NCBI RefSeq assembly: GCF_016827605.1
Contig: NZ_JAEPJQ010000001.1
Coordinates: forward strand, 806,001-870,000
DNA: 64,000 nt
Origin: Hyunsoonleella ulvae
GTDB lineage: Bacteria > Bacteroidota > Bacteroidia > Flavobacteriales > Flavobacteriaceae
Direction of reading: 5' to 3'
Position 1 is the first letter of the stretch. Every line of letters starts with the position of its first letter. Below are positions 5,841 through 14,233 of the stretch, one piece after another. The notes under the pieces were generated by a model, which was not told where the DNA came from, ran no database searches, and worked only from the letters and a program-made list of their open reading frames with translations. The position numbers and the translations under genes were made by a program.

Positions 5841-8417
5841 ATGCACAAACTATGGACTCTTTTTCTGGTTTTTAGCTCTATGAGTTTTTCTCAAAACCTA
5901 GAAGAACAGATTTACGTAGCAACAGAAGCATTTATTGAAAACCCAAACAATGTATCATATAAAACAATACATCAACAAGAAGCCAAATTTAAAAGTTTGG
6001 TAAAAACCCAAGATGAACAATTAGCCCTAGTATTTTTACAATGCCACAAAGGTTATTTTTTAGACCAGAATTCGCGTTTAGAAGCAGCTATTTTAACCTA
6101 TGAAAACGCTCTAAAACGTTTTAAAAACCATCAACTTTCAAAAATTTCAAATTTTGATATTGTAGAAAGCTGCTTAATCCCCCTAGGCAACCTCTACACC
6201 AAAACAGGCAATTATACCAATGCTGAAAACATTATTAAACAATACATTGTTTTAGCTGAAGCAAAAAAAAATAACACACAAAAAGTAAGCGGTATCATTA
6301 ATCTTGCCCAACTATACTACACCATTAGTAAATACGAGGCTGCTATTAAACTTACTTCAGATTATTTAAAGCACGACAAACTTCAAACTAACCAAAAACA
6401 AAAGCTAATTTCTATAAATGCTAACAGTAAAATTGCTTCTGGACAAATAGAAAGAAATGATGAAATTCCTATTCGGCTAGATGATGATGAAAAGAAATAT
6501 AAAATAGCCCTAAAAAATCAAAATTATATAGCAGCTTTAAACGCTTTTAATGCTCTTAAAGCCAAACGCCTTTCTAATAAACAACTATCTAAACGGGATT
6601 TAGCCAAACATCTGGTTGAAGAAGCACAACTTTATGTATTGTTAAAACAAAACACTAAAGTACTTAATAGCTTAAACAGTGCGCTAAAAATTTTAATTCC
6701 AGATTTCCAAACTGGTAACGTACCAAAAACAGAAGACGTTTATGCTGAAAATACGTTTATTGATATTTTTGATTTGTACGCAGAGATTCAATCGAGTCCT
6801 ATCAATGCCTTAAAATATTATGATTTAAGCATTTACGTATCCAATTTATTACGTAATACTTGGACTTCGCAAGAGTCTAAGCACCTCAATCAAACCAATC
6901 ATAAAATACGTAGTGAAAAGTGCATAGACCTACTCTATCAACTTTATCAGAACACAAGAAATAAAACCTACATTTTTAAAGCGTTAGAATATTCTGAAAA
7001 TAGTAGAGCCTCTACCTTAAAGGAGATTTTTCAAAAGAAATTATACTTACAAAAACATCCTAATGACAGCCTGTTAATTAAAGAATATAATCTTTTAAGA
7101 CAACAAGAACACCATACAGGTCTTCTTATTAAAGAACAATTGGGTAAAAATAGAGTTTCAAAAATCAATAGTTTAAACAAAAAACTAATAGAAATAAGCC
7201 TACAGCTAAACACTATAAAACAACTAACTTTAAAAAAACATATAGATTATAAGAGTTATGTATCGATTGAAGATGTACAAAAAAAATTAGTAGAAGACCA
7301 ATCTCTCTTAGTAGAGTATTTCTATGGAAAACATACCATTTATCAATTTGTAGTATCTCCTGAAGACATTTTAATCAATTCTATAAACATAACCTCAAAA
7401 ATCCAAAACCATATTGTAGATTACATTCATTTTTTTGATAACGCATCTAAAATAAATAATGCTATCCCAAAATTTACTGAAAGTGCATTCAACCTATTTA
7501 AACTACTAAAACTGGATACTATTCCCAGTGAACAAAACGTAATTCTTATCCCTGATGGCATATTAAATTTTGTACCTTTTGAAACACTACTTACCCAACC
7601 AACCCAAACCATATCATTTTCAAAAATGCCCTTTTTGATAAAACAGAAACGTATTGTATACAATTCCAGTATGTTTTTTTATGCAACTGATATCCAAACG
7701 GTAACGAATAACGACCTTTTAGGCTTTTTCCCTGTTTTTGAAGGTACAGATAGAGCATTAAACTATTCTATAAATGAAGCCAAAGCCATCAGCAATACAA
7801 TACCATCTACAGTATTGATGCATAAACATGCTACAAAAAGTAGTTTTTTAACTAAAGCTGCAAAATATGGTATAGTACATATTTCTACCCATGCAAGTAG
7901 TGGTAGTTCTATAACTCCTGCTAGTATTGATTTTTACGATGACACCCTTTATATTAACGAACTGTATAGCATGGATTTTAGCTCTAACTTAGTAGTATTA
8001 AGTGCTTGCGAAACGGGAATAGGCAAGCTTTTAAAGGGTGAGGGCGCTATGAGTATTGCCCGTGGTTTTCAGTATGCTGGGGCGAAAAATGTATTATTCT
8101 CTTTATGGCAAATTAATGACTTGGCTACCTCTAAATTAATGACATCATTTTATAAAAATTACAGCGAAAACCAATCAGCGCATACCTCAAACCAACAATC
8201 AAAACTAGATTACTTAAAGGATAAAGACATTAGTAACGCTAAAAAATCGCCTTATTATTGGGGTGCATTTTTGTATTATGGAGAAATTGTTCCAAAAAAC
8301 ACATCAATACATACACCCTATATCGTTTTAGGAATTATTTCTATTTTGATTATAGTACCTTTACTTTTTAAATTTATGCGCTCTCATGGAAAAAACACTA
8401 CAGGAATTTCTTCTTGA
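5841..8417 (+). CDS. TPR-CHAT caspase-like protein with C-terminal membrane anchor
   Basis: The 858-residue protein has a signal peptide (MHKLWTLFLVFSSMSFSQ), TPR-type helices over about residues 90-420, a coiled region, and a CHAT domain from about 560 to 815. The CHAT catalytic pair is visible: the histidines of HISTHASSG (His680/His684) and Cys723 in LVVLSACETG. The family pattern GEGAMSIARGFQYAGAKNVLFSLWQIND follows. A hydrophobic helix at about 828-848 and a short basic tail end the protein. CHAT proteins belong to the caspase/separase clan of cysteine proteases. The topology suggests the protease is held in the cytoplasmic membrane with the TPR/CHAT part outside the cytosol. The next gene, an aspartic protease, overlaps its end by 32 nt, a sign of tight coupling. 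Confidence 0.9.
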   Translation: MHKLWTLFLVFSSMSFSQNLEEQIYVATEAFIENPNNVSYKTIHQQEAKFKSLVKTQDEQLALVFLQCHKGYFLDQNSRLEAAILTYENALKRFKNHQLSKISNFDIVESCLIPLGNLYTKTGNYTNAENIIKQYIVLAEAKKNNTQKVSGIINLAQLYYTISKYEAAIKLTSDYLKHDKLQTNQKQKLISINANSKIASGQIERNDEIPIRLDDDEKKYKIALKNQNYIAALNAFNALKAKRLSNKQLSKRDLAKHLVEEAQLYVLLKQNTKVLNSLNSALKILIPDFQTGNVPKTEDVYAENTFIDIFDLYAEIQSSPINALKYYDLSIYVSNLLRNTWTSQESKHLNQTNHKIRSEKCIDLLYQLYQNTRNKTYIFKALEYSENSRASTLKEIFQKKLYLQKHPNDSLLIKEYNLLRQQEHHTGLLIKEQLGKNRVSKINSLNKKLIEISLQLNTIKQLTLKKHIDYKSYVSIEDVQKKLVEDQSLLVEYFYGKHTIYQFVVSPEDILINSINITSKIQNHIVDYIHFFDNASKINNAIPKFTESAFNLFKLLKLDTIPSEQNVILIPDGILNFVPFETLLTQPTQTISFSKMPFLIKQKRIVYNSSMFFYATDIQTVTNNDLLGFFPVFEGTDRALNYSINEAKAISNTIPSTVLMHKHATKSSFLTKAAKYGIVHISTHASSGSSITPASIDFYDDTLYINELYSMDFSSNLVVLSACETGIGKLLKGEGAMSIARGFQYAGAKNVLFSLWQINDLATSKLMTSFYKNYSENQSAHTSNQQSKLDYLKDKDISNAKKSPYYWGAFLYYGEIVPKNTSIHTPYIVLGIISILIIVPLLFKFMRSHGKNTTGISS

Positions 8418-8829
8418 AAAAGGTTATATCAAAATCAAATTAAAGCTCACTAAAACCAACCATTTTGAAATTAAGGCTGCTATTAATGGTGTAAAAGGAA
8501 ATTTTATTCTTGATACAGGTGCATCAAGTTCTTGTGTTGGTTTTGAAGGCACTGAAACTTTTAAACTTAAAGTTAAAGATTCAAATATTTTAGCTGCTGG
8601 CGCTGGTGCCACTGATATGGAAACCAAAATGTCTAAAAAAAATAAAGTGAAAATTGGCAAATGGCATCACGATAAAGTAGTTTTGGTTTTATTCAATTTA
8701 GTTCATGTAAATACTGCCTTAACAAATCACAACTCAAAACCTGTTGATGGTATTATTGGTGCAGATATTTTGAAAAAAGGAAAAGCTGTAATTGACTATG
8801 AGAAAAAATATCTATATTTAAAACTGTAA
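8386..8829 (+). CDS. Retropepsin-like (clan AA) aspartic protease
   Basis: The 147-residue protein has the single catalytic motif of retropepsin-like proteases, GNFILDTGASSSCVGF, with Asp43-Thr44-Gly45. Near the C-terminus it has the matching hydrophobic-hydrophobic-Gly element DGIIGADILKKGKAVIDY. One DTG per chain means it must dimerise to make an active site, as in viral and bacterial retropepsins. It has no signal peptide or membrane segment. The ATG lies inside the CHAT gene, so the two overlap by 32 nt and are translationally linked. A protease pair of a CHAT cysteine protease and an aspartic protease suggests a proteolytic cascade, which is inference. Confidence 0.85.
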   Translation: MEKTLQEFLLEKGYIKIKLKLTKTNHFEIKAAINGVKGNFILDTGASSSCVGFEGTETFKLKVKDSNILAAGAGATDMETKMSKKNKVKIGKWHHDKVVLVLFNLVHVNTALTNHNSKPVDGIIGADILKKGKAVIDYEKKYLYLKL

Positions 8830-8882: not shown

Positions 8883-9512
8883 ATGCACACATCCATAGTA
8901 ATAGCAGATGATCATCCGCTAATGCTTAGAGGCTTAACAGATTTTCTAACCTCTAAGGGTTACAATATCTTGGGCAGTGCTGAAGATGGCAAAAGCGCTT
9001 ACAACCTTATTGTAAAACTTAAACCTAAGATTGCTATTCTAGATATAAGAATGCCGTTAAAAACTGGATTAGAGATTGCTGAAGAAGTTCAAAAAAACAA
9101 ATTACCTACAAAGGTTATCTTAATTACTTTTGACAAGGAAGAAGAGTTATATGACCAAGCTTTACAGTTTGGCGTATACGGATATATTTTAAAAGAGTTT
9201 GCTATAGAGGAAATAGAAACCTGCATTGCACATGTACAAAATGACCAAGCTTATTTTAGTGAAGAAATCGCAGAATATCTAAACCACAACCAAAATAACA
9301 AACCCAAACAATTAGATTTACTTACCAAATCTGAATTAAAAATTGTAAAGCTTATATCTGAAAGTAAGACATCTCAAGAAATAGCCAAACAATTATCTAT
9401 ATCTCCAAGAACGGTAGATAAGCATAGAAGCAATATTGTATCAAAACTCGAACTAGACAACAAACCAACCTCATTGTCTATCTGGGCTAACCTGAATAAA
9501 CCTTTCTTATAA
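8883..9512 (+). CDS. LuxR/NarL-type response regulator
   Basis: The 209-residue protein has a receiver domain at residues 1-120, with the acidic pair D9-D10, phospho-acceptor D54 (AILDIRMPLKTG) and a conserved lysine in YILKEFA. A LuxR-type helix-turn-helix follows at about 145-205 (LTKSELKIVKLISES...SPRTVDKHRSNI). No histidine kinase gene is adjacent, so its kinase is elsewhere or it is an orphan. It follows the protease gene by 53 nt. A 24-bp dyad begins within its last two bases (9511) and is repeated at 9658 ahead of two small-RNA-like units. That makes those units its likely targets. Confidence 0.9.
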   Translation: MHTSIVIADDHPLMLRGLTDFLTSKGYNILGSAEDGKSAYNLIVKLKPKIAILDIRMPLKTGLEIAEEVQKNKLPTKVILITFDKEEELYDQALQFGVYGYILKEFAIEEIETCIAHVQNDQAYFSEEIAEYLNHNQNNKPKQLDLLTKSELKIVKLISESKTSQEIAKQLSISPRTVDKHRSNIVSKLELDNKPTSLSIWANLNKPFL

Positions 9513-9561
9513 AATACGTACAACTACGTATTTTATTATACTTTAATATCATTTACTTTTA
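9511..9561 (+). promoter_or_regulatory. 24-bp dyad operator plus -10 element, copy 1
   Basis: A perfect inverted repeat with 10-bp arms (AAAATACGTA and TACGTATTTT, 4-bp spacer) occupies 9511-9534. A -10-like TACTTTTA (family consensus TAnnTTTG) lies at 9554-9561, 19 nt away. The dyad centre would sit near -45 relative to the expected start, where NarL-type activators bind. The arrangement is repeated exactly at 9658. Confidence 0.6.
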
Positions 9562-9567
9562 CAATGC

Positions 9568-9626
9568 TATTAATTAGTTCTTAGGGAGAATTATTGGAAG
9601 TCCTAAACTGTAAGGTTTAGGGCTTT
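9568..9626 (+). ncRNA. Candidate small RNA, tandem copy 1
   Basis: About 60 nt lie between the -10 element at 9554 and a terminator hairpin CCTAAAC / GTTTAGG (9602-9621). The segment GCTATTAATTA, then TTCT...AGAA, is shared with copy 2 at the same distance from its promoter. No convincing reading frame exists; the only ATG would give six codons and is absent from copy 2. The 5' end is inferred from the promoter, not mapped. Confidence 0.5.
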
Positions 9627-9657
9627 CGCATTTTATATGAATCTACAACTCCTATAA

Positions 9658-9708
9658 AAAATACGTATAACTGCGTATTTTTTTTTTAAGTGTTAACATA
9701 TACTTTTA
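9658..9708 (+). promoter_or_regulatory. 24-bp dyad operator plus -10 element, copy 2
   Basis: The dyad AAAATACGTA / TGCGTATTTT (one mismatch between arms) lies at 9658-9681, and TACTTTTA at 9701-9708 after the same 19-nt gap as in copy 1. The T-rich right arm could also act as a weak terminator for copy 1. The conserved spacing to TACTTTTA argues for an operator. Confidence 0.6.
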
Positions 9709-9714
9709 CACAAG

Positions 9715-9777
9715 CTATTAATCAATTCTTTTGAGAGAGAATTACCAAAACCTTGTGTTGCATAACACAAGGTTTTT
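9715..9777 (+). ncRNA. Candidate small RNA, tandem copy 2
   Basis: The unit has AAGCTATTAATCA, then an AATTCT / AGAATT mini-hairpin, then a strong terminator CCTTGTGTT-GCAT-AACACAAGG followed by five T (9751-9777). Its body and promoter align with copy 1, while the terminator stems differ completely in sequence. That is what one expects when only stem pairing is under selection. Confidence 0.52.
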
Positions 9778-9808
9778 AAACGAAACCCTTACTTAATTGT
9801 TAATCCAT

Positions 9809-9910
9809 ATGAAAGCTACAAAATCTATTTTAGATACCTCATTTGCAATTGGTCTTGCAGTGTTAGTGATTGCCACCATTGCAATAAACCTACTGGTTAT
9901 ATTCTTTTAA
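9809..9910 (+). CDS. Single-TM membrane microprotein (33 aa)
   Basis: The ATG is at 9809 and the stop ends at 9910. The product begins MKATKSILDTSFAIGLAVLV and continues as one hydrophobic helix to the C-terminus (...INLLVIFF). It has the same design as the microprotein at 3694: a short lysine-bearing N-terminus and a single membrane span. It is bounded by the terminator of small-RNA copy 2 upstream and the shared terminator at 9942 downstream. No promoter is obvious, so read-through from the small-RNA unit is possible. It could be a membrane anchor or modulator of a CHAT-locus component, which is inference. Confidence 0.48.
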   Translation: MKATKSILDTSFAIGLAVLVIATIAINLLVIFF

Positions 9911-9941
9911 ACTCTATTTCATTTTTTAGTTAGTTGAAATG

Positions 9942-9976
9942 AAAAAGCCCCGAAACAATATGTTTCGGGGCTTTTT
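9942..9976. terminator. Bidirectional terminator
   Basis: AAAAAGCCCCGAAAC / GTTTCGGGGCTTTTT is a long perfect stem with a 5-nt loop, flanked by A and T runs on both sides. It can stop transcripts from the CHAT block on the plus strand and the atpD-atpC operon on the minus strand. Confidence 0.9.
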
Positions 9977-14151: not shown

Positions 14152-14233
14152 GCTCAAGTGGCGGAATTGGTAGACGCGCTGGATTCAAAATCCAGTTTCT
14201 TCGGAAGTGTGGGTTCGATTCCCACCTTGAGTA
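14152..14233 (+). tRNA. tRNA-Leu (anticodon CAA)
   Basis: The cloverleaf is complete: acceptor GCTCAAG / CTTGAGT with A as discriminator, D-arm GCG...CGC with GGTAGA, anticodon stem CTGGA / TCCAG with loop TTCAAAA (CAA). A long variable arm TTCTTCGGAAGT (class II) and T-arm GTGGG-TTCGATT-CCCAC complete it. CCA is not encoded. A terminator follows after 4 nt. Confidence 0.97.

Follow-up and report, generated by a model that had tools for sequence, protein, structure and literature searches.

Two predicted small RNA genes lie directly behind a LuxR-type regulator gene in Hyunsoonleella ulvae. The region 9508-9782 of the window (the whole analyzed stretch of 64,000 nucleotides) carries two promoters with near-identical dyads, and behind each of them one predicted RNA of about 68 nt. 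The explanation that we favor, and regard in its full form as probable, is that both units belong to a family of small RNAs that would be activated by the neighboring response regulator, act in trans and bring several signals to one output. Conservation and structure of the RNA, the matching of operators to regulators and their spacing were established by comparing sequences between genomes. Little is known about small-RNA regulation in Flavobacteriaceae. The matched regulator-operator pairs are a directly testable entry to the converging signals, the partners of the RNA and a helper protein, and they lend themselves naturally to studying how GerE domains recognize DNA.

Two predicted RNA units at one regulator locus

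The regulator gene (8883-9512, forward strand) codes for a protein with the REC and GerE domains of a NarL/LuxR-type response regulator (Pfam Response_reg 9.2e-25, GerE 1.4e-13, both above the Pfam cut-offs), which we propose as the activator of what we call class I units. NCBIfam gave matches to 103 models; the 25 listed all lie below their cut-offs and include no named equivalog. The gene order 5' of the units is PKD/DUF7849, CHAT-TPR (5841-8417), a retropepsin-like aspartic protease (8386-8829; Asp_protease_2, 2.2e-11) and REC-GerE, the last three on the forward strand and the CHAT-TPR gene here just 5' of the protease gene. A PADLOC search for defense systems gave weak matches for the operon, the best being the protease against PDC-M08B with 31.6 bits.

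The first unit begins with a predicted dyad operator at 9511-9534, followed by the promoter box TACTTTTA of the flavobacterial TAnnTTTG type at 9554-9561 and a predicted type A RNA at 9566-9632, which comprises GCUAUUAAU, an AGGGAG hairpin and a terminator (hairpin at 9595-9628, from fold and covariation). In the second unit, also on the forward strand, a predicted operator at 9658-9681 and the box TACTTTTA at 9701-9708 precede a predicted type B RNA at 9714-9782 with GCUAUUAAU, a GAGAGAG hairpin and a terminator (9747-9776, from repeat search and fold). Both RNAs were assigned by fold and by the RNA model R1, which they match with 73.7 bits (E 1.9e-12) and 58.6 bits (E 3.7e-9), each being itself part of the training set.

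A preliminary description of this DNA had placed the two tandem units under identical dyads. The 147-nt spacing stands, but two positions distinguish the dyads, and the arms of the second fail to match at one position. The -10 element 19 nt past each dyad was correctly located and is the box TACTTTTA in both units. A conserved body and a terminator are likewise present, with a further small hairpin between GCTATTAAT and the terminator, so that each RNA reads as a 5' GCUAUUAA, a small inner hairpin and a terminator. Beyond this hairpin, a third genomic copy, the other classes of regulator and the membrane peptide had escaped the description. In the accessible part of PMC9723704 the flavobacterial promoter box lies at -12 to -5, which would put the predicted +1 at or adjoining the G of GCTATTAAT (at 9566 and 9714) and the center of the first dyad 43.5 bp before it. 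Both predicted RNAs fold more stably than shuffled sequences (z -4.56 and -4.68). A peptide encoded inside the RNA was considered and is ruled out by stop codons in all three frames of the conserved body, which also contains no ATG.

A predicted structured RNA family in Flavobacteriaceae

The alignment started from 109 distinct candidates, selected for having GCTATTAA together with both a promoter box and dyad-like sequence, of which 61 diverse ones were taken on. Eight of these were dropped as badly trimmed or divergent (including L021 and one L016 unit), several 3' ends were shortened and five sequences were added (L160, three of L024 and one of L026), giving 58 rows. Because the rows were chosen by GCTATTAA, its invariance in columns one to eight is built into the alignment, and the removal of divergent rows makes the alignment favor structure. 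RNAalifold returned the terminator helix only; the inner hairpin was added by hand from single folds. Compensatory changes occur in 12 of 13 terminator pairs and, within the inner hairpin, in 5 of 8 (17/21 together). Over both helices 92.3% of the cells pair, and no shuffle out of 500 equals these figures, although this statistic ignores relatedness. The proposed selection on RNA structure is thus borne out by the changes in the terminator, and the covariance search in relatives that had been suggested finds both helices to covary.

Model R1 was built with the terminator helix alone and has matches at E <= 0.01 in 129 of 299 sampled genomes of the family, where matches close to this threshold may be chance. 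At E <= 1e-4 it matches 11 of 395 genomes of the order, a set that includes genomes of the family, and all 11 belong to Flavobacteriaceae. Judged by sequence, the RNA is conserved in many Flavobacteriaceae. The genome of H. ulvae itself has three matches at 58.6-73.7 bits, namely both window units and C1:453629-453698, all members of the training set; the next best match reaches 29.1 bits. The third copy (L160), with an operator of class III, has no recognized LuxR-type neighbor. Matches of 29.1 bits or less in this genome were treated as chance; in the best of them (L325), GCTATTAAT follows a TAnnTTTA box at a distance of 4 nt, with no recognized dyad. Other sites of GCTATTAA behind TAnnTTT in the same genome (L191, L192, L194, L195) were rejected as not unit-like by eye.

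A scan of the window against Rfam release 15 at gathering scores found one match, a tRNA at 14152-14233. With matches admitted up to an E of 10, the region 9500-9950 gave 13, all far below the gathering scores. A literature search, which did not reach most subscription papers, found no published description of the RNA.

The RNA is also recovered through its promoter. A search for the full class I promoter pattern, a dyad and TAnnTT with 23 nt between them, gave 25 matches in 12 genomes of the genus, 22 of them at the regulator locus; the reversed pattern has none in 29 genomes. The pattern excludes the letters of the RNA, yet 22 of 22 locus matches lead into GCTATTAA. The six off-locus matches (three in the genus, three in other genera) precede or adjoin different genes, and GCTATTAA follows none of them. 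In H. ulvae, a complete class I promoter pattern (L359, G000:C18:132515-132559) stands before the gene of a 295-aa protein, by eye of the C45/choloylglycine-hydrolase type. In three genomes (L357, L358, L346) a class I-like promoter has similar genes upstream and differing genes downstream, a slot that looks as if it were exchangeable.

The inner hairpin varies. Among 40 units of loci with orthologues of the response regulator its region contains AGGG in 23, GAGAGA in 9, another GGA or GGG in 2 and none of these in 6. Among class I units AGGG is found in 132 of 192, a count biased by the choice of most loci through a body that contains AGGGAG; the unbiased figures are 23/40 and 11/22. In L310 (minus strand) and L312 (plus strand) the body at 1501 is immediately preceded by an extra hairpin, whose AAGGG loop sits on an unrelated stem.

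Possible action in trans

We infer that the units are activated from the predicted start sites and that the RNAs act in trans. The conserved 5' GCUAUUAA would mediate this action, joined in type A by the AGGG hairpin, and the most likely mode is pairing with mRNAs or holding an RNA-binding protein.

That the RNA is an antisense regulator whose 5' GCUAUUAA end pairs near start codons is plausible, and we hold it tentatively. In the predicted folds this end is unpaired in unit 2 and mostly unpaired in unit 1, where bases 1 and 2 are paired to the 3' side. The lead of all 22 locus promoters into GCTATTAA agrees with this reading, as does the 5' seed that FopS RNAs of Bacteroides use according to the accessible part of PMC11697453. 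The exact 9-mer argues the other way, as it shows no clear excess at start regions. The anti-seed ATTAATAGC has 132 exact sites in the H. ulvae genome; of 96 distinct sites, 8 fall in the interval from 100 nt upstream to 45 nt downstream of a start, where a hand estimate with uniform placement and 3500 assumed genes expects about 6 of 96.

Titration of a protein is the second mode, in which the AGGG hairpin would sequester a translational repressor in the manner of RsmX/Y/Z and RsmA, the protein here not being CsrA; we consider it unlikely, though worth keeping in mind. It is consistent with AGGG in the hairpin region of 23/40 units at loci chosen without the body, with the extra AAGGG loop on another stem in L310 and L312 (by eye), and with the fit of AGGGA to the ANGGA motif given in the accessible text of PMC2375449. 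However, AGGG is absent from 17 of the 40 units, one motif per RNA is the rule, whereas several are needed according to the same text (PMC2375449), and a candidate protein is lacking. CsrA (PF02599) was found in 0 of 299 family genomes, with the control positive in 3 of 14.

In the Pseudomonas system of GacA with RsmX, RsmY and RsmZ, as far as PMC2375449 could be consulted, a GacA-type regulator positively controls sibling sRNAs that carry GGA motifs, and a palindrome upstream of them is the potential binding site. The likeness lies in the wiring, here sibling RNAs with a predicted response-regulator operator upstream. In contrast to that system, CsrA was not found in the 299 family genomes, an RNA usually has one AGGG (by eye) and many units have none, the RNAs adjoin the regulator gene, and the same RNA also stands behind other operators. 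Membership of the Rsm/Csr titrating RNAs thus fails on the CsrA partner and on the number of motifs.

In Vibrio, several sibling sRNAs, the Qrr RNAs, are the output of a response regulator, LuxO, which is a sigma-54 activator, and these RNAs use Hfq. The H. ulvae units resemble them as several predicted sibling sRNAs of a response regulator. Unlike in Vibrio, Hfq (PF17209) was found in 0 of 299 family genomes, with the control positive in 5 of 14, a result that does not place the RNA among the Hfq-dependent sRNAs.

In Bacteroidota, the FopS/GibS family of Bacteroides is described in the accessible part of PMC11697453 as multicopy sRNAs that share a conserved 5' end and have a terminator. By description, the present RNA is likewise a multicopy Bacteroidota sRNA with these two features. 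FopS has canonical promoters that some regulator may enhance (PMC11697453, in the part available), whereas the operators here match neighboring regulator genes; in addition the present RNA has an inner hairpin, and its window region reaches the threshold of no Rfam family. Rfp18 of Flavobacterium psychrophilum is a conserved flavobacterial sRNA whose third stem-loop is the pairing region, according to the text available of PMC9723704; it shares with the window RNA, in a comparison of descriptions and not of sequences, that both are conserved flavobacterial sRNAs.

Operators change with the neighboring regulator

The regulator, used as query against 60 relatives, gave the loci L007-L036, chosen without use of the RNA. 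In L007-L028, which are the locus of the window and orthologues of at least 46% identity, units follow a dyad 3' of the regulator gene in 21 of 22 loci, with one to three units each, in agreement with the placement behind a LuxR-type gene noted before. The exception is L025, where a degenerate dyad runs directly into the peptide gene without an RNA. No units were seen at L029-L036. All 61 named class I loci with at least 600 nt of sequence have the protease gene 5' of the regulator. The CHAT gene, found in 14 of 43 loci with at least 2500 nt, is not a constant partner.

An exact scan of genome contigs for GCTATTAATTAGTTCTTAGGGAG gave at least 116 named stretches with at least 121 instances of the body, which were sorted by operator and by tblastn to reference regulators, REC-GerE being counted within 1200 nt. 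Among the matches listed, class I (TACGTA dyad) has 86 instances, with REC-GerE upstream in 80, two at an edge and four with none. Class II (TACTCA..TGAGTA dyad) has 29 among the matches listed, and here a PAS-GerE gene is upstream in 27, with one at an edge and one without. The matches listed further include two of class III, one with another PAS-GerE type downstream and one with none, and four with unclassified operators, one of them with REC-GerE. Four of the five listed class I and II instances without regulator lie within 420 nt of a sequence end; L117 does not. Crossed operator-regulator pairs were not seen among the at least 121 instances listed, and the classes agree in all 107 matched instances of classes I and II. 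Two operator classes occur within one genome in Hyunsoonleella flava, Algibacter pectinivorans, A. mikhailovii and H. aquatilis, so common descent of the species is not enough to account for the match.

Twenty further stretches were taken around additional matches of model R1. Class II has its own regulator there in 10 of 11 cases, the exception being L240, and a convergent gene starts 70-110 nt downstream at 8 of 11 sites. Class IV (TACGG..CCGTA-like) lies behind the same 221-aa protein at 3 of 3 sites (L231 twice, L233). This protein matches Response_reg and DUF5932 only below the cut-offs and has no GerE match, which makes a LuxR-type label uncertain. In class III (TACC..GGTA; 7 units) a regulator adjoins only part of the units: a divergent PAS-GerE-type gene with a PAS match below the cut-off at L228 and L236, a second PAS-GerE type downstream at L048 and a distant REC-GerE relative 206 nt upstream at L064, while no reference regulator lies within 1500 nt of the units of L041, L081 and L160. 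No operator pattern matched at L229, L234, L239 and one L237 unit; at the first three the body has no recognized regulator. At L230:10297 a class I operator has no regulator nearby. L234 retains protease and RNA units and lacks the regulator between them, possibly a loss.

Since the operator matches the kind of regulator next to it while RNA and spacing stay constant, control of the units by the neighboring LuxR-type protein, as first proposed for this locus, is well supported by sequence comparison.

The position of the operator is nearly fixed. With distances of 30-60 accepted in the count, 239 of the 240 distinct operator-bearing units have the operator center between 41.5 and 45.5 bp ahead of the predicted start. 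For class I the distance to the predicted +1 is 43.5 in 179 of 194 units, 44.5 in 11, 42.5 in 2, and 45.5 and 53.5 once each. Class II has 43.0 in 36/36, class III 43.5 in 6 of 7 and 42.5 once, and class IV 41.5 in 3/3. In the 4.06-Mb genome, TACGTA-N4-TRCGTA occurs at six distinct places (9 strand-counted rows; reversed control 2). Two of these are the window pair, and a third lies 27 bp past the stop codon of the closest response-regulator paralogue (L156 1501-1516, G000:C16:391110-391125; 41% identity), before a gene for a secreted-looking protein. Two others (L155, L157) sit in similar repeat-like sequence with TCTAACCGTTG, which we take to be attC-like.

It is improbable that the dyads are repressor sites or serve a regulator other than the neighbor. 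Some copies indeed have no recognized regulator nearby, but the agreement in all 107 matched instances, the dyad behind the closest paralogue and the fixed position of about 43 bp before +1, which suits an activator, argue against it. In our preferred reading the REC-GerE regulator, presumably phosphorylated, would bind the TACGTA-N4-TRCGTA dyad about 43.5 bp before the start, where the dyad overlaps the -33 region, and would activate both members of the ~68-nt family from their TAnnTTTG-type promoters, each transcript probably ending at its intrinsic terminator.

Elsewhere other regulators would switch on the same RNA through their own operators, and several signals would thus feed one RNA output. 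The comparison points to one small RNA as the output of several signals in bacteria without detected Hfq or CsrA. A bolder version, which we put forward as speculation and think quite unlikely, is a regulator-swapping module: one RNA shared by at least three GerE-domain signaling kinds, and perhaps a fourth, response-regulator-like one, each with its own operator at a fixed distance, in which the AGGG hairpin would act on a protein replacing CsrA and the class I peptide would feed back on the sensor.

The membrane peptide behind the units

Class I loci end with a gene for a hydrophobic peptide of about 33 aa, in the window a 33-aa peptide with a single transmembrane segment (9809-9910, forward strand). 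Judged by eye, 21 of 22 loci have a convincing homologue (the exception is L027, and that of L025 is longer), and 37 equal-length pairs among 11 sequences of the genus give a pN/pS of 0.24. Pfam and NCBIfam gave no match for the 33-aa peptide. Across 168 loci there are 91 distinct peptide contexts, at least one of which (L085) is unlikely. Duplexes between RNA and peptide mRNA are no better in energy than shuffles (mean z +0.20, n=91), and the complementarity of a type I toxin-antitoxin pair was thus not found. CCC[CTA]AA precedes the peptide start in 21 of 88 sequences, which are related, against 6.7 +/- 2.5 in shuffles.

Least probable of all is that the RNA is a leader or attenuator of the peptide gene, or forms with the peptide a type I toxin-antitoxin-like pair: the peptide behind the units in 21 of 22 class I loci, its place directly behind the degenerate dyad of L025 and the excess of CCC[CTA]AA would suit this, but unit 1 has its own terminator and then another promoter, RNA and peptide share one strand with no pairing signal, and the class II copies with a convergent gene (8 of 11) are not leaders. 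Under the small RNA reading, the unit 2 RNA may double as a leader of the peptide gene, and read-through could express the peptide. Behind the peptide gene lies a symmetric hairpin (9942-9976) followed by a convergent 91-aa gene; with its A and T tails and its place between convergent genes, it is likely a two-way terminator.
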